The notes below the pieces were generated by a model that was not told the origin of the DNA, searched no databases, and saw only the letters and a program-made list of their open reading frames with translations. 39,593 nucleotides of DNA. Origin: Nitrospira sp. bin75 (lineage in GTDB: Bacteria; Nitrospirota; Nitrospiria; Nitrospirales; UBA8639). The position numbers and the translations under genes were made by a program. Location of the stretch: NCBI GenBank assembly GCA_002238765.1, contig MPMZ01000026.1, positions 1-39,593 on the forward strand, given 5' to 3'. Below are positions 2,829 to 13,073 of the stretch, piece after piece (position 1 is the stretch's first letter; each line of letters starts with the position of its first letter).

Positions 2829-4118
2829 TTACAGCCAGGTAGCGCGTTCGGCTGGCCGAATGTAAATCGGCTCTTCCACTTGCTGCCGGACGGCTTCCTT
2901 CCCGGACTTGTTGAACCCTAACACGGTGTCGTTGTACATCTCGAACTTCCGACCGTGAATTTGGGTTTCAAACACTTTCGGTCCAGGAATGATGTCATAC
3001 CGGAACACGATTTGTTGGCTCGCTCTCCAGAGCTGGAGGACGGCTAACAATTCCCGGCTCGGCACCAAGTACTTCTCGATCGCATTGTCCACGCCCGGCC
3101 CGAACATCTGCCGGATGTAGCCACGAGGCGCTTGCCGCGGGGGAATGTAATACCCGTTCGGCTCCGTGCCCCATTGCGGATACAGCGGCAACGCCACCTG
3201 TTCCACCCGGATGGTGTAGTACAGGGGGTTCCACCGATCTTCCGCCCACAGTCCATCCTCACCGATCTTGACGAGGTTCTGTAAGCGAATCTTACCCACG
3301 CAGGCCGCCATACACCGGGTTTCCATCGGCTCACCACCGGTGAGAGGATCTTTCCCCTCCACCCGCGGATAGCACGCGATGCACTTCTCGGTCACCCGAG
3401 TCGTACCCCGATACATCGGCTTTTTGTATGGACATTGCTCCACGCACTTCTTGTACCCACGGCACCGGTTCTGGTCGATCAGCACGATCCCATCCTCCGG
3501 CCTCTTGTAGATGGCTTTCCGCGGACAGGCGGCCAAACAACCCGGATACGTGCAATGGTTACAAATGCGTTGAAGATAGAAGAAGTAGGTTTCATGTTCC
3601 GGCAAGCTGCTGCCGGTCATGCGCCATGGTTCTTCCTTGGTAAACCCGGTCTTATCAATGCCTTCCACAATCGCGCGCATTGACGTGGCCGTGTCTTCAT
3701 AAATGTTGACAAAACGCCATTCTTGGTCCGTCGGAATGTACCCGATCGCGGCCTGGCCGACTTTCGCCCCGGCATCGAAAATGGTCATCCCTTCGAACAC
3801 CCCATACGGCGCATGGTGTTTGCGGCCGACCCGCACGTTCCACACCTGTCCGCCTGGGTTGACTTGTTCGATCAACTGCGTGATTTTCACGTCGTAGAAC
3901 TGTGGATATCCACCATACGGTTTCGTTTCCACGTTGTTCCACCACATGTACTCCTGGCCTTTCGAAAACAGCCACGTGGATTTATCCGCCATGGAACAGG
4001 TTTGGCAGGCCAAGCAGCGATTGATGTTGAACACAAAGGCGAATTGCCACTTCGGATGCCGTTCCTCATAGGGATACAGCATCTTCCGCCCTAAGTGCCA
4101 ATTATAGACTTCTGGCAT
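2829..4118 (-). CDS. nxrB: Nitrite oxidoreductase beta subunit NxrB
   Basis: The 429-residue electron-transfer subunit of nitrite oxidoreductase relays electrons from the alpha-subunit molybdenum site through [Fe-S] clusters. ATG 4118 follows GGAGGAAACC. Cysteine clusters are visible as CLACQTC at residues 35-41, then CNHCTYPGCLAAC, CRGYKKCVEQC, CIAC and CMAAC. This is the four-cluster ferredoxin-like arrangement of type II DMSO-reductase family beta subunits (NarH, NxrB). There is no own signal peptide, which fits co-export with the Tat-signal-bearing alpha subunit. It lies 75 bases downstream of nxrA and is followed by a strong terminator. The length and the N-terminal MPEVYNWHLGRKM agree with my recollection of Nitrospira NxrB rather than Nitrobacter NxrB. 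Confidence 0.97.
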   Translation of the reverse strand: MPEVYNWHLGRKMLYPYEERHPKWQFAFVFNINRCLACQTCSMADKSTWLFSKGQEYMWWNNVETKPYGGYPQFYDVKITQLIEQVNPGGQVWNVRVGRKHHAPYGVFEGMTIFDAGAKVGQAAIGYIPTDQEWRFVNIYEDTATSMRAIVEGIDKTGFTKEEPWRMTGSSLPEHETYFFYLQRICNHCTYPGCLAACPRKAIYKRPEDGIVLIDQNRCRGYKKCVEQCPYKKPMYRGTTRVTEKCIACYPRVEGKDPLTGGEPMETRCMAACVGKIRLQNLVKIGEDGLWAEDRWNPLYYTIRVEQVALPLYPQWGTEPNGYYIPPRQAPRGYIRQMFGPGVDNAIEKYLVPSRELLAVLQLWRASQQIVFRYDIIPGPKVFETQIHGRKFEMYNDTVLGFNKSGKEAVRQQVEEPIYIRPAERATWL

Positions 4119-4193: not shown

Positions 4194-7100
4194 TTACACC
4201 TTGATCTTGATGTGGTCGCCTTTGAGCCACTTGATCATGAACTCATTTTCCTGCCCAGGCGTAAACCCGGTCCGGACTGGCTCCCATGGACCCCTGCCGC
4301 CGATACCACCGTCCTCTGCTTTGGTAATCCGCATCAGACATTCTTTCGGAGTGGTGTTGACCGCATGGTTGTCCACTTGATAACCGAATTTGAACTTCCA
4401 GCCCACTGCGTGTTTCCCCGGCAGTGAGTCGGTTTGGTGCATCGGCATCAACCAGTCCCGGGTGAAGGACTGTTGCGCCCCATACCGGAAGTTGGATTGA
4501 TAACCCGTATCCATCGCGATGGCCCGTCCGTCCGGTCGGGTTTCGTGACCCTTCACGGATTTCGCGGTTGCCACGTACGGAGCGTGTTTCGCCATCGTCA
4601 CGTGGTACGGGAACGCCGGGTTGTACTTCGACCGAATCATCAACCGAGCCACTTTGTAGTACGGGTCACTCGGCTTCCAGCCGCGGTACGGCCGATCAAC
4701 CGGATTGCCGTCAACGTACACGTAGTCACCGTCGTTGATGCCCCGGTCTTTCGCCGCTTGTGGGTTCATGTGTAATTGATGCTCACCCACACCCGGTGTC
4801 CGTTTATCCATCCGATACGCGTCACCGAAGTTCGACTCGTACATCTGCACCCAGTCGTTCACCGACCATTGGCTGTGTACACGATGCCGCGTCTTCGGCG
4901 TCACGCAATAGAACTGATACCCCTTCTCCCACAGTGGGTTGGAGTACCGTTTGATTTCCTGCCACGGCAACGCAATGTTACGTACCGTTTTGTCATCATG
5001 GTGCTGCGCCGTGATGGGAATACCATAGTCATCCGGCCGCACGTACGGGTTCGTCGTCATAATCGCGTTCGGCAAGTATGGAGTCGCCTCCGTCCCTTCC
5101 CGGTGCGAAATGAAGTTTTCCCCGTATTCAATGGCTTCCGGCTCCGTCCGGTAGTTCTCATACCGGCCAGTCCGGGTCCATTGTGGCTTACTTTCATTCG
5201 TCTCTTCCCAGAACGGTTGCCGTGGATACGTCCGGCACAGCACCATCCAGCCCTTCTCGGACTTGAGCATGGTGTCGACGCTGTACCCGTACCCCGTACA
5301 ACTGGCATCCAACAACCGTTGCACGTACACGTCCACCCGGTTGTCGTAGACGAATTTGAAGTAATCCCGGAACCGCCCATCGCCCGTCATATTGGTCAAT
5401 TTGGCGGCCACGCCGGCTGTCGTATCCAGGTCGTTTCTGGTGTCATACAAGGGCCGGATACCCCCTTTCCACACCTGGAACCACGGATTCGACACCGTTG
5501 CCGTATGCTCCGGATACGTGAACTCCATCCACGTATTCACACCCATCGCGATGTCGGCATGGTTCACGTCCGAGGTCATCTCGATATCCTGGGTGACGAT
5601 ACATTCGATGTGTGGGTCCACGTTTCTGACCATGTCATAGTGGTGTTTGGCGTTGTTCAACACGTTGACGTTCGCCACCCACCGGAACTTGGTCGGGGTC
5701 GGCATGTGCGTCTTTCCGGTAAACACCCGGCGCCCATACTTCGGCGTGTTCACGATCAACGCCGTGTCCCCATGGTTCCAGTAAGCCACCTCTTCACCAT
5801 AGTAGTAGCCACGCACGTGCACTTCTTTACCGTGTGCGTTCGGATCCGTCGTGATCTTGAACGGATTCTCCGCGGTGTGCGTGCCCAACCCACCGCCGGA
5901 CCACGGGGTGGCGTTCCAGATCCCCGCTTTGTAGTTCCCGGCCCAGGTATGTTGCCCGGTCCCGAACTTCCCGACGTTCCCGGCGATAATCAACACCATC
6001 GCCGCGCCACGCGCAATGATGGTTTGGTGGAAGTAGTGGTTCGTCCCTTCCCCGTTGTGAATCGTTGCCGGCTTGATGGTTCCTGAATCTCTGGCCCAGC
6101 GGACGATCAGGTCCTTCGGGGACCGGTTGATCTGGTGGATCGTATCCAAGTCGTAGTCCTGCAAGTGGACTTGATACAACTGGAAGATCGGTGCCACGTC
6201 GACTTCCCGGCCGTTCAGCAACTTCACCCGGTAGGTCCCGGTCAAGGCTGACTCGATGCCGCTGTTCCGGTAATGCCAGCCCACCAATTCACGGTGAATC
6301 GGCACGGCTTGGTTCTTATTCGTATCCCACACCATGAAACCGCCGAGACGCGCAATCTTCGCCGGATTCAGCGTTTGCACTTTCCCCGAATAGGTTTTGG
6401 AGAAGTCCGGCAAGGAATAGCCCTTGATCACGTCGCGCGGATCAAGATATTGCAGCGTGTCCGTACGAACCAGAATCGGCATGTCCGTATAGGCCGCGCA
6501 GAAATCATGGTCATGCATGTTCTCGTCGAACATGATCTTACAGGCACCCAGGAACAATGCCGCGTCCGTCTCCGGCCGAACCGGAATCCAGTAGTCGGCA
6601 CGATACGCCGTCGGGTTGTACTCCGGCGTGATCACGACCACCCGCGCTCCACGCTCGATACTCTCGAGCTTCCAGTGCGCTTCCGGCATTTTGTTTTCGA
6701 CGAAGTTCTTGCCCCAGCTTGTGTTCAACTTCGCGAATCGCATGTCGCTCATGTCGTTGTCAGAGGTTTGCACCCCGGACCAGAACGGATGCGCTGGGTT
6801 TTGGTCACCGTGCCAGGTGTAGTTCGACCAATACCGGCCGCCTTGGGCCTGGTTGGGCTTCACTTTCCGAATGTAGTGGTCGAGCAACGCGCCGCAGCCA
6901 CCGTTCATCCGGGTGACGGACATCTTGCCGATCACGCCCAGGATGGGCATCCCCGCGCGGAACTTCATGGTCCGCACGCCGGAACCCTTGGTCATCTCGA
7001 TCATTTCCGGCGGATAGCCTTGCTCCCGCAACCGACGGGCACCGGCTTCGCCGCTGTACCGCTCCGCGATAATGACCATGGCTTTGGCCAGGTACGTAAA

Positions 7101-7631
7101 CGCCGTATCCCAGCTTACCCGCAACATGTCATCCAGGAACCGCGAAGTGAATTTGTATTTATTCATGACGTCCGGAGTGAATTCCGGGCTACCGGCATCC
7201 ATCCAGGCTTTCCAACCACGGCGCATCAAGGGGCCTTTCAACCGATAGGGCCCATACACCCGACGATGCATCGTGTACCCCTTCAAGCACATCCGCGGAT
7301 TGTGTGCAAACGTTCCGCGGTTGCCGTAGAGGTCTTCGTAGGTTTGGTGGTCGTAGTTTTGCTCGACCCGCATCACCACACCGTTACGCACGAAGGAACG
7401 CACGCGACAGGCGTGGGTGTCGTTCGGGGAGCAGACCCACGTAAACGACGAATCATAGCGATACTGATCGTGGTACACCCGCTCCCAGGCGCGATCCGGA
7501 TACTCGCCCAGCGGATTGCCCACTTCGACAACCGGTTGCAGCGCAGTCAAGGCCAAGGCTTTGTCCGCCAACGCCACTGCCGCCACTGTCCCGGTGGTCA
7601 CTTTTAAAAATTGACGTCTAGAAAGAAACAT
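4194..7631 (-). CDS. nxrA: Nitrite oxidoreductase alpha subunit NxrA
   Basis: The catalytic subunit oxidises nitrite to nitrate at a bis-MGD molybdenum centre. The 1145-residue product starts at ATG 7631, seven bases after GAGGAGG; an upstream in-frame start (7658) lies across that binding site and is rejected. The N-terminus MFLSRRQFLKV followed by a hydrophobic alanine-rich stretch is a Tat-like signal, so the active site should face the periplasm. The N-terminal [4Fe-4S] motif reads C67-x3-D71-x3-C75 with C115 further on, with Asp in a position that is usually Cys. Size and sequence style fit Nitrospira-type NxrA in the type II DMSO-reductase family. Expression probably starts at the sigma-54-type site at 7806-7821, with a leader of about 160 bases. 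Confidence 0.97.
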   Translation of the reverse strand: MFLSRRQFLKVTTGTVAAVALADKALALTALQPVVEVGNPLGEYPDRAWERVYHDQYRYDSSFTWVCSPNDTHACRVRSFVRNGVVMRVEQNYDHQTYEDLYGNRGTFAHNPRMCLKGYTMHRRVYGPYRLKGPLMRRGWKAWMDAGSPEFTPDVMNKYKFTSRFLDDMLRVSWDTAFTYLAKAMVIIAERYSGEAGARRLREQGYPPEMIEMTKGSGVRTMKFRAGMPILGVIGKMSVTRMNGGCGALLDHYIRKVKPNQAQGGRYWSNYTWHGDQNPAHPFWSGVQTSDNDMSDMRFAKLNTSWGKNFVENKMPEAHWKLESIERGARVVVITPEYNPTAYRADYWIPVRPETDAALFLGACKIMFDENMHDHDFCAAYTDMPILVRTDTLQYLDPRDVIKGYSLPDFSKTYSGKVQTLNPAKIARLGGFMVWDTNKNQAVPIHRELVGWHYRNSGIESALTGTYRVKLLNGREVDVAPIFQLYQVHLQDYDLDTIHQINRSPKDLIVRWARDSGTIKPATIHNGEGTNHYFHQTIIARGAAMVLIIAGNVGKFGTGQHTWAGNYKAGIWNATPWSGGGLGTHTAENPFKITTDPNAHGKEVHVRGYYYGEEVAYWNHGDTALIVNTPKYGRRVFTGKTHMPTPTKFRWVANVNVLNNAKHHYDMVRNVDPHIECIVTQDIEMTSDVNHADIAMGVNTWMEFTYPEHTATVSNPWFQVWKGGIRPLYDTRNDLDTTAGVAAKLTNMTGDGRFRDYFKFVYDNRVDVYVQRLLDASCTGYGYSVDTMLKSEKGWMVLCRTYPRQPFWEETNESKPQWTRTGRYENYRTEPEAIEYGENFISHREGTEATPYLPNAIMTTNPYVRPDDYGIPITAQHHDDKTVRNIALPWQEIKRYSNPLWEKGYQFYCVTPKTRHRVHSQWSVNDWVQMYESNFGDAYRMDKRTPGVGEHQLHMNPQAAKDRGINDGDYVYVDGNPVDRPYRGWKPSDPYYKVARLMIRSKYNPAFPYHVTMAKHAPYVATAKSVKGHETRPDGRAIAMDTGYQSNFRYGAQQSFTRDWLMPMHQTDSLPGKHAVGWKFKFGYQVDNHAVNTTPKECLMRITKAEDGGIGGRGPWEPVRTGFTPGQENEFMIKWLKGDHIKIKV

Positions 7632-7746
7632 TGCGAAACCTCCTCGTGTAAAGGCCAAGCGGCCTAACGTGGAATGGATTAATGAAAAAACCCCCTGATG
7701 GGGAAAACCTTTCTCCGACCACCTCCTTTCCTGACTTTTGCTTCAT
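7618..7746 (-). CDS. Possible leader ORF overlapping the nxrA start
   Basis: A 42-codon reading frame starts at ATG 7746, twelve bases after GGAGGAGG, and ends at TAG 7618-7620, just inside nxrA. It begins MKQKSGKEVVGE. The frame spans the hairpin at 7685-7703. A leader whose stop overlaps the downstream start would allow translational coupling or attenuation. The peptide has no recognised family and its existence is inferred only from the start site and position, so it may be chance. Confidence 0.25.
   Translation of the reverse strand: MKQKSGKEVVGERFSPSGGFFINPFHVRPLGLYTRRFRNVSF
7685..7703 (-). terminator. Terminator-like hairpin in the nxrA leader
   Basis: Read on the minus strand, CCCC-ATCA-GGGG is followed by G and six T. 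The stem is only four to five pairs, so a full terminator is doubtful. Its place between the probable promoter and nxrA suggests attenuation or transcript processing. Confidence 0.35.
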
Positions 7747-7805
7747 GATTCTGTTGATCCTCCTCCATGAATACTGGCTGGTTTCCTTTATCCTCCCATA
7801 TTTCT

Positions 7806-7920
7806 AGCAATTTTCGAGCCATCATGGGAAGTTTTCAAAAATATCTATAACATATTGAAAATAAATGGGAATATGTATTTTAAACGATGTGGGATATTTA
7901 CTGGTGTTTCCAATTGGTAG
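7806..7920 (-). promoter_or_regulatory. Sigma-54-type promoter and upstream block of nxrA
   Basis: At 7806-7821 the minus strand reads TGGCTCG-AAAA-TTGCT, which matches the -24/-12 consensus TGGCACG-N4-TTGCW with ten bases between GG and GC. Transcription would start near 7794. The next ~100 bases upstream, up to CTACCAATTGG at 7910-7920, align with the block at 9163-9278. Conservation of the upstream part suggests shared enhancer or activator sites. No direct evidence for use is available. Confidence 0.6.
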
Positions 7921-7933
7921 CATGATAGTTCGC

Positions 7934-8248
7934 TCATGATGGCACTGATGACAAATCGAGATTGTTCGTGAAACGTTTAGTTTTCGTAACATAATGATCC
8001 ATCCAACCTATCGACAGTGCCAAAAGTGCAAAAAATGTCAACAAAATTTGACATAATAAAAATTTTGGCAGCCAACCAAGGACATTTTTCAGGGTTCGGT
8101 GAACCAATGAACAGCAATTACCTGGAGCTGGCTCGCTCCCCACCGCAACGGGAAGGCACGGGGGGACGCCCTCTATAGTTGTTACCTGAAGGTAACAGAT
8201 TTCAGGGCCATAACAGCAGGGTTTGGTGCGTTTGCGGGCGTCTTGCAA
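7934..8248 (-). CDS. Doubtful small membrane ORF
   Basis: This 104-residue frame has one clear hydrophobic segment (LPKFLLCQILLTFFALLALSIGW, about residues 58-80). Its N-terminal half is cysteine- and proline-rich and looks non-coding. A hairpin TGTTACC-TGAA-GGTAACA sits inside it at 8180-8197. It follows the 8334-8759 gene by 85 bases on the same strand. It could be the degenerate last gene of that operon or noncoding sequence. The rest of 8249-8333 shows nothing. Confidence 0.25.
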   Translation of the reverse strand: MQDARKRTKPCCYGPEICYLQVTTIEGVPPCLPVAVGSEPAPGNCCSLVHRTLKNVLGWLPKFLLCQILLTFFALLALSIGWMDHYVTKTKRFTNNLDLSSVPS

Positions 8249-8333
8249 AGAGCAGGCTTAAGCGAATTCCCCGTGTGTCTTCATAATACCTTCAACTCAG
8301 GGAGACAGGAGCGTAGCCAGAGCCTAGGGGAAG

Positions 8334-8759
8334 CTACCGGCAAAATACAGAGTTTTCCAATGGCTGGAGTGCGAGGTTTTCTCTGAATGAATTGATTTTC
8401 AGCTCCGCAACCGAGCAGTCTTGCAGGTAGTTAAACCGCGCCTCTAAGGCTTGCCCGAAATTAGAATTTTCCGCAACCCCTTTATCGTACTTTCCTATTG
8501 TCGCCCCACAATAAAGGGAGGCGGAGAACAAGATCATGAAAAGGCTTATCATAATCCTGACGTCATGTTCTCTACCGGCTGCGGAATTGAAAACAAACAC
8601 CATCCCTATACCCGACAACGCCACGGGAAGCACCGCCGCAAGAATCACTGCTTTTGAATCGCTTTGACCCACAAAATATCCGACAACCCATCCAAAAACC
8701 GCAGGGGCACACACCGACAAAGCATAACTTACTACTTTTGCTATTTTGTCAGAGTCCAT
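8334..8759 (-). CDS. Hypothetical three-helix membrane protein
   Basis: The 141-residue product starts at ATG 8759. Three hydrophobic segments lie at about residues 9-31, 37-58 and 69-88. A soluble C-terminal part with two cysteines follows (YLQDCSVAELK and SVFCR). No family was recognised. It lies 18 bases after the exported-protein gene 8778-9098, so the two are probably one operon under the sigma-54-type promoter at 9163-9178. Confidence 0.55.
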   Translation of the reverse strand: MDSDKIAKVVSYALSVCAPAVFGWVVGYFVGQSDSKAVILAAVLPVALSGIGMVFVFNSAAGREHDVRIMISLFMILFSASLYCGATIGKYDKGVAENSNFGQALEARFNYLQDCSVAELKINSFRENLALQPLENSVFCR

Positions 8760-8777
8760 AAGCGAAGCGTCACGACC

Positions 8778-9098
8778 TTATCCTCGTATTTGTCGATCCG
8801 GATCCGGAAAGTAGAGCTTCCGATACATTTCGGCTGGTGTCTGACCCCAGACTCCTCCTCTCTCCGGAACCAAGCTGTCTGATACCCCTGCTTGTGGAGG
8901 ATAAGGATTGTTTATAGTTAAGGAGTTCTTTAAATATTTACTACACTCTGTCTTCCACTTTGTCTCTTTCAAAACACACTCCCTAAAAGCTGCATTCTCA
9001 TTTTGTTCTGCCGTCTCGGAACTCCCGTCCTCTGCCGTTACTGCAACGGGACAACACAGAACGATCCAGAAGAAAAGACTAATCCATGTGTGATACAT
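8778..9098 (-). CDS. Small exported hypothetical protein
   Basis: The product has 106 residues from ATG 9098, eight bases after GGAGG; a GTG at 9107 lies too close to that site. The N-terminus MYHTWISLFFWIVLCCPVAV followed by TAEDGSS is a clear Sec signal peptide with cleavage likely after TA. The mature part of about 85 residues holds two cysteines (RECVLKETKWKTECSKYL) spaced for a disulfide, and proline-rich C-terminal sequence. The function is unknown. It is first in an operon whose promoter region resembles that of nxrA, which suggests that it is expressed under the same signal. Confidence 0.6.
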   Translation of the reverse strand: MYHTWISLFFWIVLCCPVAVTAEDGSSETAEQNENAAFRECVLKETKWKTECSKYLKNSLTINNPYPPQAGVSDSLVPERGGVWGQTPAEMYRKLYFPDPDRQIRG

Positions 9099-9162
9099 GA
9101 CAGTCACCTCCGACAGTAGGTCGCAATCATTCGCCTTGCATTTTCGCCTTCGCTCTATTTAG

Positions 9163-9278
9163 AGCAATTTTTGCGCCATCATGAACGTTTTTGAAATATC
9201 ACTGTAACACGTTAAAAACAAAGATTCATTTAGTTTTCTAAACAATACAAGATATTCCCTCACGTTTACAATTGGTAG
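9163..9278 (-). promoter_or_regulatory. Second sigma-54-type promoter block, sister of the nxrA one
   Basis: At 9163-9178 the minus strand reads TGGCGCA-AAAA-TTGCT, again with ten bases between GG and GC. Start of transcription is expected near 9151, giving a ~53-base leader for the gene at 8778-9098. The block matches 7806-7920 along its length: GATGGC, TGTTA, ATATC and CTACCAATTG recur at matching places, roughly two thirds of positions by eye. The gap 9279-9346 shows nothing else. Confidence 0.55.
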
Positions 9279-9346
9279 GACGTAATTGGTTTGGTAGTGT
9301 CCTTGAGCGTGTCTAGTGCTATTTATATTTAAATAAACCATAGGAT

Positions 9347-9544
9347 TCAATGTGACCAATCCTCTGCTATGCACTCGACGCTGAACCCCTTGTCTTTAAG
9401 AATTCTTTCAAAACTCTTAACGTGCTCAGCCCCGCAAATGAATAGAACTGGCCATTGGGTTACCGTTTGTAGACGCTCAAGCCAATAATGCTCGCGTCGC
9501 GTCAATGCTGAGCAAATTTGTCGTTCAATTTGGGAATTATCCAT
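9347..9544 (-). pseudogene. TraB/TIKI-like protein, C-terminal fragment
   Basis: This is the C-terminal third of the gene whose start lies at 10450-10815. Reading continues as ERQICSALTRREHYWLERL and VLFICGAEHVKSFERIL. The GAxH motif near the end is the second GxxH signature of TIKI/TraB-type proteins. The frame now opens with an ATG that belongs to the inserted cassette's end. Removing the cassette plus one 8-bp repeat joins both parts in frame (171 residues). A short shortened product from the inner ATG is possible but unlikely to be active. Confidence 0.8.
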
Positions 9545-9553
9545 TTAACTTGA

Positions 9554-9664
9554 CAGGATAATCCGATTGTGATAGGCTTCTTTCATACCGTGGATCGCAT
9601 GGCGGCCTTGTTCGGCGGCATGCCTGGAAAGACGATGACCTACAAGGGGTTGGTCGCCGATTGA
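9554..9664 (+). pseudogene. Transposase C-terminal remnant (IS1595-like)
   Basis: The open frame ends IGFFHTVDRMAALFGGMPGK then TMTYKGLVAD and a stop. The pattern GK-x-x-TYK-x-L-x-A at the very C-terminus is what I recall of IS1595-family transposases. Only about 36 codons are left, directly beside the left inverted repeat, as expected if a deletion removed the body of the transposase. The family call rests on a short match. Confidence 0.5.
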
Positions 9665-9691
9665 CAGGAAGTACTAAGTCTGCTATACAAA

Positions 9692-9726
9692 AATGGCCCG
9701 ATCCTCGGCGAAAGGATCAGGCCATT
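9692..9726 (-). terminator. Hairpin, possible minus-strand terminator in the cassette
   Basis: AATGGCC-C-GATCC pairs with GGATC-A-GGCCATT around a nine-base loop. On the minus strand the stem runs into TTTTT. It could end transcripts entering from the interrupted gene or from the 10015-10227 passenger gene. Confidence 0.45.
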
Positions 9727-9829
9727 AACACCAAATAGAAAGGATTGTAATTTGATAGGCCGTTAGGCAGGACCCCCGTTTAAGTTCAACCCGCTGTTGG
9801 TAGCAGCGAATCAAGAAAGGACGCTTACA

Positions 9830-10018
9830 ATGAAAAGTCTTATCAGTTTCGTTCGCTCAAGTCAAGCCCCCATCCAGATCATTTTCGGTGGCCGCGTGCC
9901 AAGCGGGCACGAACAACTGCAACAGTTGATTCGTCACGCTGAACGGCAATCCTTTCGGGTGTGGGCGTTCAATCGCTGGCAACGGGTGAAGGCCCGGCTC
10001 GGCTTGTGCCGCGTTTAA
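9830..10018 (+). CDS. Cassette passenger gene 1, small basic protein
   Basis: The product has 62 residues from ATG 9830, preceded by AAAGGACGCTTACA; an upstream in-frame start at 9797 lacks a binding site. It is soluble and basic toward the end (RVWAFNRWQRVKARLGLCRV), with the centre IQIIFGGRVPSGHEQLQQLIRH. No family was recognised. Its last four bases overlap those of the convergent gene at 10015-10227. Its place inside a transposon-like cassette marks it as a passenger. Confidence 0.5.
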   Translation: MKSLISFVRSSQAPIQIIFGGRVPSGHEQLQQLIRHAERQSFRVWAFNRWQRVKARLGLCRV

Positions 10019-10227
10019 TGCTTCATCATATCGGCCAAGAGTCCGAGCACCCATAGCAGGGCAAGAGAAATCGGGATGGCCTTCCAGCCCAGCGCCCGCA
10101 AGAGTACCCAACAGAAATAGAGCAGGGGAAGCGCCACCGTCACGACAAGAAGCCCTAGAGGGCCTGTCGCAAGGAAAATCAGCACAACCCATACCAAGGC
10201 CAGGGCCGCAAAGATTCCGGTCCACAT
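10015..10227 (-). CDS. Cassette passenger gene 2, small membrane protein
   Basis: The 70-residue product starts at ATG 10227 behind GGAG. It is almost wholly hydrophobic, with segments at about residues 4-22, 24-44 and 49-66, broken by a short LRALGWKAIP loop. No family was recognised. It is tail to tail with the small basic protein gene. A membrane/soluble small-protein pair in a mobile cassette could be a selfish or protective module, but the sequence gives no direct evidence. Confidence 0.5.
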   Translation of the reverse strand: MWTGIFAALALVWVVLIFLATGPLGLLVVTVALPLLYFCWVLLRALGWKAIPISLALLWVLGLLADMMKH

Positions 10228-10284
10228 AGGGCATTCTCCGCGTAAAAATGGGTGATATTCCGACAGGGATAGGGTCGGGCCTGC

Positions 10285-10421
10285 CCGTCCATTCAGGCAA
10301 GAGACTCCCTGCGTATTTACCGTGTCAATGGATCGCGCCGCGTCTGGTAGCTATCCAGGGCAGCGCGATCAGGCTCTTGTATTTCACAGGCGACCCGACA
10401 AGGGGTAGCCTGAATGGACGG
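10285..10421. repeat. Nested inverted repeats at the cassette's right end
   Basis: A perfect 14-bp outer pair (CCGTCCATTCAGGC at 10285-10298, complement at 10408-10421), a CAAGAG/CTCTTG pair, an inner GATCGCGC/GCGCGATC pair (10331-10338 and 10363-10370) and a central CTGG/CCAG pair form a long stem with internal loops. It may be a folded RNA or a recombination or replication site; no known family was recognised. Confidence 0.6.
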
Positions 10422-10449
10422 TCGGAAGGAATCTAACAGAAGCGGAAAG

Positions 10450-10815
10450 TTACGTCAAGTTAAATGGATAATTCCCTTCAATTTCATCGTCGGAAATATT
10501 GGGATCAGAGAACTGCTGAATCCTAATGTCGTTTTCCTGCAACAGTCCAAGTTCCCTACGTTGTTTGCGATCGGGGTCACAGAAAAGATGTGTAAGCGAT
10601 AACTCACTTGCGACCCGTTGTGGAATTGACTCATTGCGCTTCACCTCTACCAAGGCTTCTACGTTCATTTCCTCGGCCACCGTTCGGATGTCATATCGAC
10701 GACACGCCTCCAAAAGAAAACGTTGAAAGGTTTGTGCCCCTTGCGGGGGACATCGTTCCTCTGCCGTCTGGTATGGGTGGCTGGTTCCAATGAGCACTAT
10801 CTTATTTATGTTCAT
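10450..10815 (-). pseudogene. TraB/TIKI-like protein, N-terminal fragment
   Basis: The frame starts at ATG 10815 with MNINKIVLIGTSHPYQ, where GTSH is the first GxxH motif of the TIKI/TraB superfamily of metal-dependent proteins. It continues through TVAEEMNVEALVEV and THLFCDPDRKQRRELG to DDEIE, and then runs into the cassette for a few false codons before a stop at 10450. Joined to 9347-9523 it gives 171 residues with two GxxH motifs, acidic EEMN and Arg residues. This is an inference from motifs; the function of such short members is unknown. Confidence 0.8.
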
Positions 10816-10833
10816 GTTGCGCTTGATACTCGC

Positions 10834-11868
10834 TCATTGAGGTCTTCCGGTCGCCAGCGGAACATGAGTCCAGGACTCGCCGCCATCCCGGCTGCGAAAA
10901 AGGCCGCTGCCGTTCGTGCCCACGTACAACATCAGTGGATCGCGGGGGTCCATGGCGATCGTTCGAATATTCAGGTTGTCCAACCCGTTATTGGTGGTTT
11001 TCCACGTGTGCCCGCCGTCCCGGCTTTGAAAGATACCCCGGCTGGTCCCCATATAGAGGTGCTGCCCGTTTCCGGGTTCCAACACGAGGCTGCTCACGTA
11101 GAGTTCTCCGAGACCGGCCGCCAGTCTCGTCCACTCCTCTCCCTTGTTGAGTGTCTTGAACACGCCTCGGGTGGTACCCGCGTAGACGACGTCCGGATCG
11201 GCAGAATCGATCAGCAATCGATTCACTCCCAAGGCCATGGACGCCATTTTGGCGTCATCGGGAACGAGCCCGTTATTGGTCTTTGTCCAATGGTCTACCC
11301 CATCGAGACTGCGATACACCCCGCCGCTCGTCCCTGCATAGAGAATATTGGGGCTCATCGGATCGACGGCCAACGCGACGATAAAATTGATCTCGCTCAT
11401 ACCTCGCATGCGTTCGGTCCAGGACTGCCCGGCGTCCCTGGTCTGAAACACCCCGACGGTCGTCGCCGCGTACAGGATTTGCGAGTCAATCGGATCGAAG
11501 ACCAGTTGATTCACGTTGGCCGAGATCGTCCCTTTCTGAATGCCGGCATTGCGCGGGAGCCAACGCCGTCCGCCGTCGGGACTTTTGTACACCCCATCGG
11601 CAAGCGTACCCGCAAACACATTGGCCGGCAGCTGCGGATCGATCGCCAAATTCATGACCCGCACGCGACGTAACCCTTCCGAAAGCCGTTTCCATGCCAG
11701 TCCTCCGTCCCGGGTTTTATAGACGGCTTCTTCCGTCGCCACGTAGACCAACGTCGGCTTGCTGGGATGCACTACGACGGCGACCACACGATCGCTGCGC
11801 TGGGTGCAGCCCAACAGCAGGGCTACCATGACGAGAAAGACGACGGCATCTTGAACGACGGTCTTCAT
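10834..11868 (-). CDS. BNR/Asp-box repeat lipoprotein
   Basis: The product has 344 residues from ATG 11868, which overlaps the stop of the upstream gene (ATGA), so the two are translationally coupled. A lipoprotein signal ends in LLLGC with the lipid-carrying Cys at residue 21. The rest is made of seven or so blade-like repeats with the Asp-box pattern S/TrDGGxxW (KTRDGGLAW, KSPDGGRRW, QTRDAGQSW, RSLDGVDHW, QSRDGGHTW, RSRDGGESW). This is a beta-propeller of the sialidase/VPS10/YCF48-like type. It is probably anchored in the periplasm; a ligand cannot be named. Confidence 0.85.
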   Translation of the reverse strand: MKTVVQDAVVFLVMVALLLGCTQRSDRVVAVVVHPSKPTLVYVATEEAVYKTRDGGLAWKRLSEGLRRVRVMNLAIDPQLPANVFAGTLADGVYKSPDGGRRWLPRNAGIQKGTISANVNQLVFDPIDSQILYAATTVGVFQTRDAGQSWTERMRGMSEINFIVALAVDPMSPNILYAGTSGGVYRSLDGVDHWTKTNNGLVPDDAKMASMALGVNRLLIDSADPDVVYAGTTRGVFKTLNKGEEWTRLAAGLGELYVSSLVLEPGNGQHLYMGTSRGIFQSRDGGHTWKTTNNGLDNLNIRTIAMDPRDPLMLYVGTNGSGLFRSRDGGESWTHVPLATGRPQ

Positions 11869-13073
11869 CGGCTCAGGTGGTTCTTGCGTGAACGATACTC
11901 GAATTCCAGGGGGTTCGCATATCCGGTGAGTTCGACGTACCCGTTGCCGGTCACGGGCGCATTCCGGTAATGGCCGCGCACGTCCACCGCACCTTCCCAA
12001 TACGTCACCCGGGTGCTGTTCCCGGTCCGCAGTTCCTGATCGGGCAGCACCGGCGTCACCGTGACCTGAAGCGGGACCGACGGAACCGCCACGATCCACT
12101 GCGCCGGGTACTGCGCGTGACTGAGCGGGCTGGTCCACTGATCCGTCGTTCGCACCACGAAGTCCGCGCGTTTCAGGTGCCGGCTCGTGCCATCCGGAAA
12201 GATCAATGTCCCGCTCGACGCCGGATCATGGGACCCGTCCCGTTTACGCAGGAGATAGAGCATGAATTCGACGTTCGAATCAAATTGCACGCTGAACCAA
12301 TCCCACCCGACTTGATCCTCGCCCAAGCCGCCGGACCCGAACTCATGATCCATCCAACTGGTCCCGGTGACATCAAACGGTTCGCCCCGGACCCGGACGG
12401 TTCCCCGGGTCGCCAAACGCGTGAGTGAATAATAGTGTGACGCCTGGCCGGGGCCGAGGCCCTTGCGACTGATCCCTTCCCGGCCGTGGATCACGGGCGG
12501 TTTGTCCAAGGTGAGCGTCAGATCGACGCCGAATCCGGCATCCTGGGCCGTGAGATGCACCCGGCCATGATCCTCGGTCACGGGGTTCAAGGTCCAACGG
12601 TCGATCCAGACCTTCATCCGGTCGGGATCGGCTCCGGCTTTCCCCAATGCCGCTCGACTTAATTTTTCGGCAAATCGAAAAGTGGCCCCCTCAACGTCGG
12701 TGACGGCCAAGTGCGCGAAATACAGATGCCGCAACGCCCAACGTGACGGGTGCTCGCGCACGCGCGCATCATCGACGGCCTTGCGGAAAAACGTGACTTC
12801 ATAGCCGAACCGTCTCGCCGACCGGTCATAGAGGTGACCGGTGAAGTACCACCACTCCAGGCCGTAGCGGTCATGGGAACCGTGATCGCGCGGGAAGGCA
12901 TAGACGTATCCGGGCTGTGCCGTGATCAGCTCGGATTTCTCACCAGACTCCGTCGCGAGGACTTCGGATGGAGAAGGAAGAACCTCCTCACCCCGGCTCT
13001 CTCCAAAGGGCAGAAGGAGAACAATTGACAGCGCACAACCAAGACCGATCACCCTATCACGCAGTCCCGGCAC
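11865..13073 (-). CDS. CrtC/AttH-like lipocalin-fold secreted protein
   Basis: The product has 402 residues from a GTG at 13073 behind GGAGGGTG. An N-terminal signal peptide is visible (VIGLGCALSIVLLLPFGESRG). The signatures 'GLEWWYFTGHLYD' near residue 70 and 'GTSWMDHEFGSGGLGEDQVG' in the middle are those of the AttH/CrtC (carotenoid 1,2-hydratase-like) family with two lipocalin-type domains. Carotenoid neighbours are absent, so the substrate is not known. It is the first gene of a two-gene operon with the BNR lipoprotein. Confidence 0.85.
   Translation of the reverse strand: MPGLRDRVIGLGCALSIVLLLPFGESRGEEVLPSPSEVLATESGEKSELITAQPGYVYAFPRDHGSHDRYGLEWWYFTGHLYDRSARRFGYEVTFFRKAVDDARVREHPSRWALRHLYFAHLAVTDVEGATFRFAEKLSRAALGKAGADPDRMKVWIDRWTLNPVTEDHGRVHLTAQDAGFGVDLTLTLDKPPVIHGREGISRKGLGPGQASHYYSLTRLATRGTVRVRGEPFDVTGTSWMDHEFGSGGLGEDQVGWDWFSVQFDSNVEFMLYLLRKRDGSHDPASSGTLIFPDGTSRHLKRADFVVRTTDQWTSPLSHAQYPAQWIVAVPSVPLQVTVTPVLPDQELRTGNSTRVTYWEGAVDVRGHYRNAPVTGNGYVELTGYANPLEFEYRSRKNHLSR

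Follow-up and report, generated by a model that had tools for sequence, protein, structure and literature searches.

Little is known of how nxr, the gene of the key enzyme of nitrite oxidation, is controlled, and the bacteria that carry it are hard to grow and to manipulate. In the closest described system, that of Nitrospira moscoviensis, a NifA-like regulator (NITMOv2_4531) and the sigma-54 regulators NITMOv2_4536 and NITMOv2_4539 are encoded beside nxrAB and have been proposed to control it; the NifA-like regulator is highly transcribed, and a term search of the text of that report yielded no promoter, enhancer or operator sequences (PMC6606698). We analyzed a stretch of 39,593 nt (the window) from a 3.04-Mb Nitrospira assembly of 115 contigs and compared it with its genus, for which 14 species were covered. 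The bacterium is likely sponge-dwelling, and the genus, judging from its genome size, G+C content and habitat, is probably Ca. Nitrosymbion of lineage IV (PMC11812461). In contrast to N. moscoviensis, where sigma-54-dependent activators adjoin nxrAB, no activator gene is seen beside nxrAB in the window, and the upstream region of N. moscoviensis nxrA (L174) carries neither a sigma-54 core at the expected place nor the palindrome described below. Classical sigma-54 promoters of the nif/ntr type bear activator half-sites about 100 bp upstream, an IHF site and the -24/-12 element. The block in front of nxrA has the same order of elements; one difference is that this locus holds two copies of the module. 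The first copy and its surroundings comprise the following features:

2829-4118, minus strand: nxrB, from the open reading frame and synteny (a name that we presume from family knowledge)
4194-7631, minus strand: nxrA, with the ATG start as in relatives (N-terminus 99-100% identical within the genus)
7802-7932, minus strand: nxrA control block, the proximal copy, also conserved ahead of nxrA in 12 further species of its genus (E 6e-26)
7806-7821, minus strand: nxrA sigma-54 -24/-12 core TGGCTCGAAAATTGCT, matching TGGC-N7-TTGCW
7846-7865, minus strand: IHF-like element TTTATTTTCAATATGTTATA, lying between the UAS and the promoter, conserved in the blocks and putatively bound by IHF
7906-7921, minus strand: activator (UAS) half-palindrome GCTACCAATTGGAAAC, with 2 mismatches to GTTACC-N4-GGTAAC
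8181-8196: perfect palindrome GTTACC-N4-GGTAAC, putative nxr enhancer, the sole exact copy in the genome

The nxrA block is found upstream of nxrA in every genus genome in which that gene was found (13 of 14), as the sequence-only reading of the window had proposed to look for. Its majority forms in the genus are, in order, GCTACCRAWTGGAAAC, TTTATTTTCAAnnnGTTATA and TGGCnCGAAAATTGCT; the first of these elements is a degenerate form of GTTACC-N4-GGTAAC, and TGGC and TTGCT of the core are invariant across all blocks of the genus. Each nxrA-bearing genome has one strong block, and a second one occurs solely in the genome studied here and in G003:

9160-9287, minus strand: second control block, by alignment and by the two sequence models given below
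9163-9178, minus strand: sigma-54 core TGGCGCAAAAATTGCT, matching TGGC-N7-TTGCW
9203-9222, minus strand: IHF-like element TTTGTTTTTAACGTGTTACA, by alignment
9264-9279, minus strand: weaker UAS-like element CCTACCAATTGTAAAC, with 4 mismatches

That the two blocks share about 115 bases, with a sigma-54-type core in each, had been claimed from the letters alone. The pairwise alignment confirmed this claim: positions 7799-7921 and 9156-9279 (minus strand) align locally from end to end with a score of 60-62, far better than shuffled DNA (z ∼18; 5000 dinucleotide shuffles with a mean of 17, a standard deviation of 2.4 and a maximum of 30), and no further place in the window approaches this score. 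In a repeat search the pair of blocks appears as D1 (67 nt, 73%) and D2 (46 nt, 72%), the principal direct repeats here, with spacings of 1357 and 1358. Both blocks match TGGCNCRNNNNTTGCT exactly at their cores. Searched by itself and with one mismatch, the core gave 54 + 61 matches genome-wide vs 53 + 51 for the control and is not enriched, so the evidence lies in the block as a whole. An nhmmer search with a model of the nxrA-proximal blocks alone recovered the second block with an E-value of 2.5e-17; a 135-position model of the blocks in the genus, the two window copies being among its sequences, gave 6e-26 for the nxrA block and 1.4e-22 for the second. Order and spacing of the elements are common to both, with the UAS 99 bp from the -24 element in the nxrA block and 100 bp in the second, compared to a position kept at about 99-102 bp among the nxrA blocks of the genus. 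At the sequence level, shared control is well supported: order, spacing, sigma-54 core and an activator-type half-site have all been retained.

The palindrome at 8181-8196, which the sequence-only reading had missed, points to the site through which such control may act. In 7 of the 14 genus genomes (this one and 6 others) it occurs exactly once and always upstream of nxrA, ∼375-485 bp upstream of the sigma-54 core, with no exact copy outside nxrA upstream regions in the genus genomes; a control word was matched in one genome only. Across the order, ∼70 nxrA upstream regions gave 8 exact occurrences, 24 with at most 1 mismatch and 57 with at most 2, compared to 0, 0 and 6 for the reversed word, counts that overstate the number of events because related loci are not independent. 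NifA binds TGT-N10-ACA and NtrC binds TGCACC-N5-GGTGCA; we know of no activator site that matches GTTACC-N4-GGTAAC. This palindrome is probably the nxr enhancer and the leading candidate for where the nxr activator binds, and its unique position upstream of nxrA, together with the degenerate forms across the order, offers a direct handle for finding this protein. RpoN is encoded in the genome (one PF04552 domain), as are eight full PF00158 sigma-54 activators. For one response regulator (C57:23219-24613), relatives with 63-71% identity lie near nxr in L113, L187 and L194. A PAS-type sigma-54 activator (C57:12580-13932; L283:9990-16776 region) is located among cytochrome c and cupredoxin genes of the same genome and is a candidate nxr regulator.

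Searches for a wider nxr regulon with GNTACC-N4-GGNAAC gave counts near the control, and the other matches of the block model lacked the half-site, consisting of just the IHF-like element and the core, chiefly upstream of what we take from the sequence to be lpxC. The IHF consensus is WATCAANNNNTTR, from which TTTCAATATGTTA differs by one letter. As the element and a sigma-54 core also precede lpxC, the IHF-like part of the block is not specific to nxrA and looks like an IHF site. This arrangement upstream of lpxC was seen in at least 8 species of the genus (L237-L244), and a sigma-54 core before a gene of lipid A synthesis looks unusual.

The second block had been described as a duplicate of the nxrA block. 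In the broad sense this holds, but it is not a simple copy of its neighbor, since the nxrA blocks of sister species are closer to it: it is 80% identical to the nxrA block of G007, 77% to that of G005, 73% to the second block of G003 and 67% to its own nxrA block. In G003 the second block (L097:3001-3120) is found at the same place, between the homologue of the gene at 10834-12138 and the palindrome. The two second blocks group together with 86% ultrafast bootstrap in an alignment of 141 columns, and they align past the shared block over ∼147 columns. The simplest reading of these sequences is one older duplication, lost later in the closed-gap sisters G004, G005, G009 and G010; a transfer of the block between species is a possible alternative origin. 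A recent duplication within each genome was also considered: the AU test rejects a tree that joins the two blocks of G003 (p = 7e-11), whereas for those of the window such a tree is not favored but also not rejected (p = 0.099). Misassembly is unlikely, as G003, a separate assembly, carries a second block in the equivalent position.

The second block lies in DNA that the sister species do not share:

8202-10850: AT-rich insert of 2.65 kb, absent from sister species, in which the palindrome runs directly to the 10834 gene
8334-8759, minus strand: open reading frame for a membrane protein of 141 aa with several hydrophobic helices, 18 bases after the exported-protein frame
8778-9098, minus strand: open reading frame for an exported protein of 106 aa with a Sec-type signal peptide and the Shine-Dalgarno sequence GGAGGTGA

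Besides the second block and both small frames, the insert contains a small gene that is interrupted, and its G+C content is 45-47% vs 57% for nxrA. With the exported protein as query, a search of the genome collection found no homologue in 49 genomes of the family or in a sample of 396 genomes of the phylum, and the protein is thus not conserved with nxr across the nitrite oxidizers covered. Pfam and NCBIfam gave no family for the exported protein and only sub-threshold matches for the membrane protein. Comparisons of the exported protein with the PDB and of the membrane protein with plasmids were uninformative, and one match of the exported protein to viral contigs was judged to be due to chance. 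Single-sequence folds of the two proteins reached pLDDT values of 54 and 50, with no confident fold. Coding of the small frames is likely but unproven, because codon usage supports neither of them and the exported protein has no homologue in these searches. Within the insert, inverted arms of 51 nt (complementarity 76%, GGGAATTATCCATTTAACTTGAC ends) at 9532-10476 enclose ∼0.84 kb of DNA. This stretch, probably an inserted element, splits the small gene in two (10450-10815 and 9347-9544), and the part at 9347-9544 weakly resembles TraB/PrgY. An end similar to the GGGAATTATCCATTTAACTTGAC ends is present at L101:6677-6702, upstream of nxrA in G007.

We propose, with a probability of about 0.6, that the second block is an older, near-functional duplicate of the nxrA sigma-54 module and that the exported/membrane operon is expressed with nxrAB. 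With the DNA bent at the IHF-like site, an enhancer-binding protein on sites of the GTTACC-N4-GGTAAC type would contact RNA polymerase-sigma-54 and so drive nxrAB; the same activator would drive the second promoter and with it the small operon. The latter would be recent AT-rich DNA that was inserted at an insertion-prone site and came under the second promoter. A duplicate nxr promoter would drive any DNA placed downstream of it, so co-regulation of the small operon with nxrAB is probable, but the proteins that it encodes may have no part in nitrite oxidation. A second module before other DNA predicts that further genes respond with nxrAB.

The second block could instead be what is left of an additional nxr promoter, perhaps one that served a second nxrAB since lost, and be decaying without any present use; we consider this reading unlikely. 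Multiple copies of nxrAB are usual in other Nitrospira (PMC6606698). Of 37 positions that are invariant among nxrA blocks, the window's second block keeps 31 (p = 0.036), and its nearest approach to the perfect palindrome, which is absent from the DNA shortly upstream, has 3 mismatches (at 9459). Because 6 of the 37 positions are lost and the half-site is weaker, the block may be decaying, or may be a weaker or fading promoter. However, its -24/-12 core and spacing are intact, the counterpart in G003 keeps 35 of the 37 positions (p = 6e-6), a ribosome site and a frame with a signal peptide follow directly, and the DNA behind the second block shows no sign of the nxrA leader.

More doubtful still is a genuine Nxr-associated role of the two small proteins, in assembly, stability or electron transfer, with the shared promoter keeping them in step with nxrAB. 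This role, suggested in the sequence-only reading, draws on the shared block with its retained spacing and on the position of the small frames next to nxrA, and a signal peptide would suit a periplasmic Nxr; beyond position and shared control we found nothing in its favor. The exported protein is absent from all other nitrite oxidizers searched, and the DNA is inserted and AT-rich, as its G+C content relative to nxrA indicates. Furthermore, the block of the same lineage and at the same place in G003 is followed by a terminator hairpin of 12 pairs and an unrelated NYN-domain gene in place of the exported/membrane pair, which shows that the neighbor of the second block changes. That the second block serves nxrA as an additional, remote activator site, with incidental transcription of the small frames, is very improbable: sigma-54 enhancers act at a distance and a strong terminator stands between the G003 second block and the NYN gene, but conservation of the -24/-12 core would be unneeded and the perfect palindrome is already closer to nxrA.

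Our preferred reading of the second block as a near-functional duplicate can be extended, quite tentatively, to a Nitrospirales nxr enhancer code, composed of GTTACC-N4-GGTAAC, an IHF-like site and a sigma-54 promoter, with the second module of the genus as a permanent site at an insertion hot spot, where changing, newly arrived genes would come to be expressed along with those of nitrite oxidation. The stretch ahead of nxrA looks insertion-prone: it holds the insert in the window, the NYN gene in G003 and toxin-antitoxin-like frames in G011. In G011 these are PIN/VapC-like and antitoxin-like frames (L105:29-1192) that lie upstream of the palindrome and reach the end of the contig. The second block of G003 is followed by a hairpin-rich stretch of ∼150 nt (L097:3128-3282) that ends in the strong terminator and is possibly a small RNA under nxr-type control; its fold z is only -1.75, and no conserved copy was found.

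The nxrA leader at 7632-7730 is strongly conserved and could be an attenuator or leader RNA; a search of 7550-10850 against Rfam gave no match. It contains AAAGGAGGTGGT, a terminator-like hairpin CCCC-ATCA-GGGGG-TTTTTT and a small stem before the ribosome site, which reads AGGCC..GGCCT here and AGGCTG..CAGCCT in other genera.
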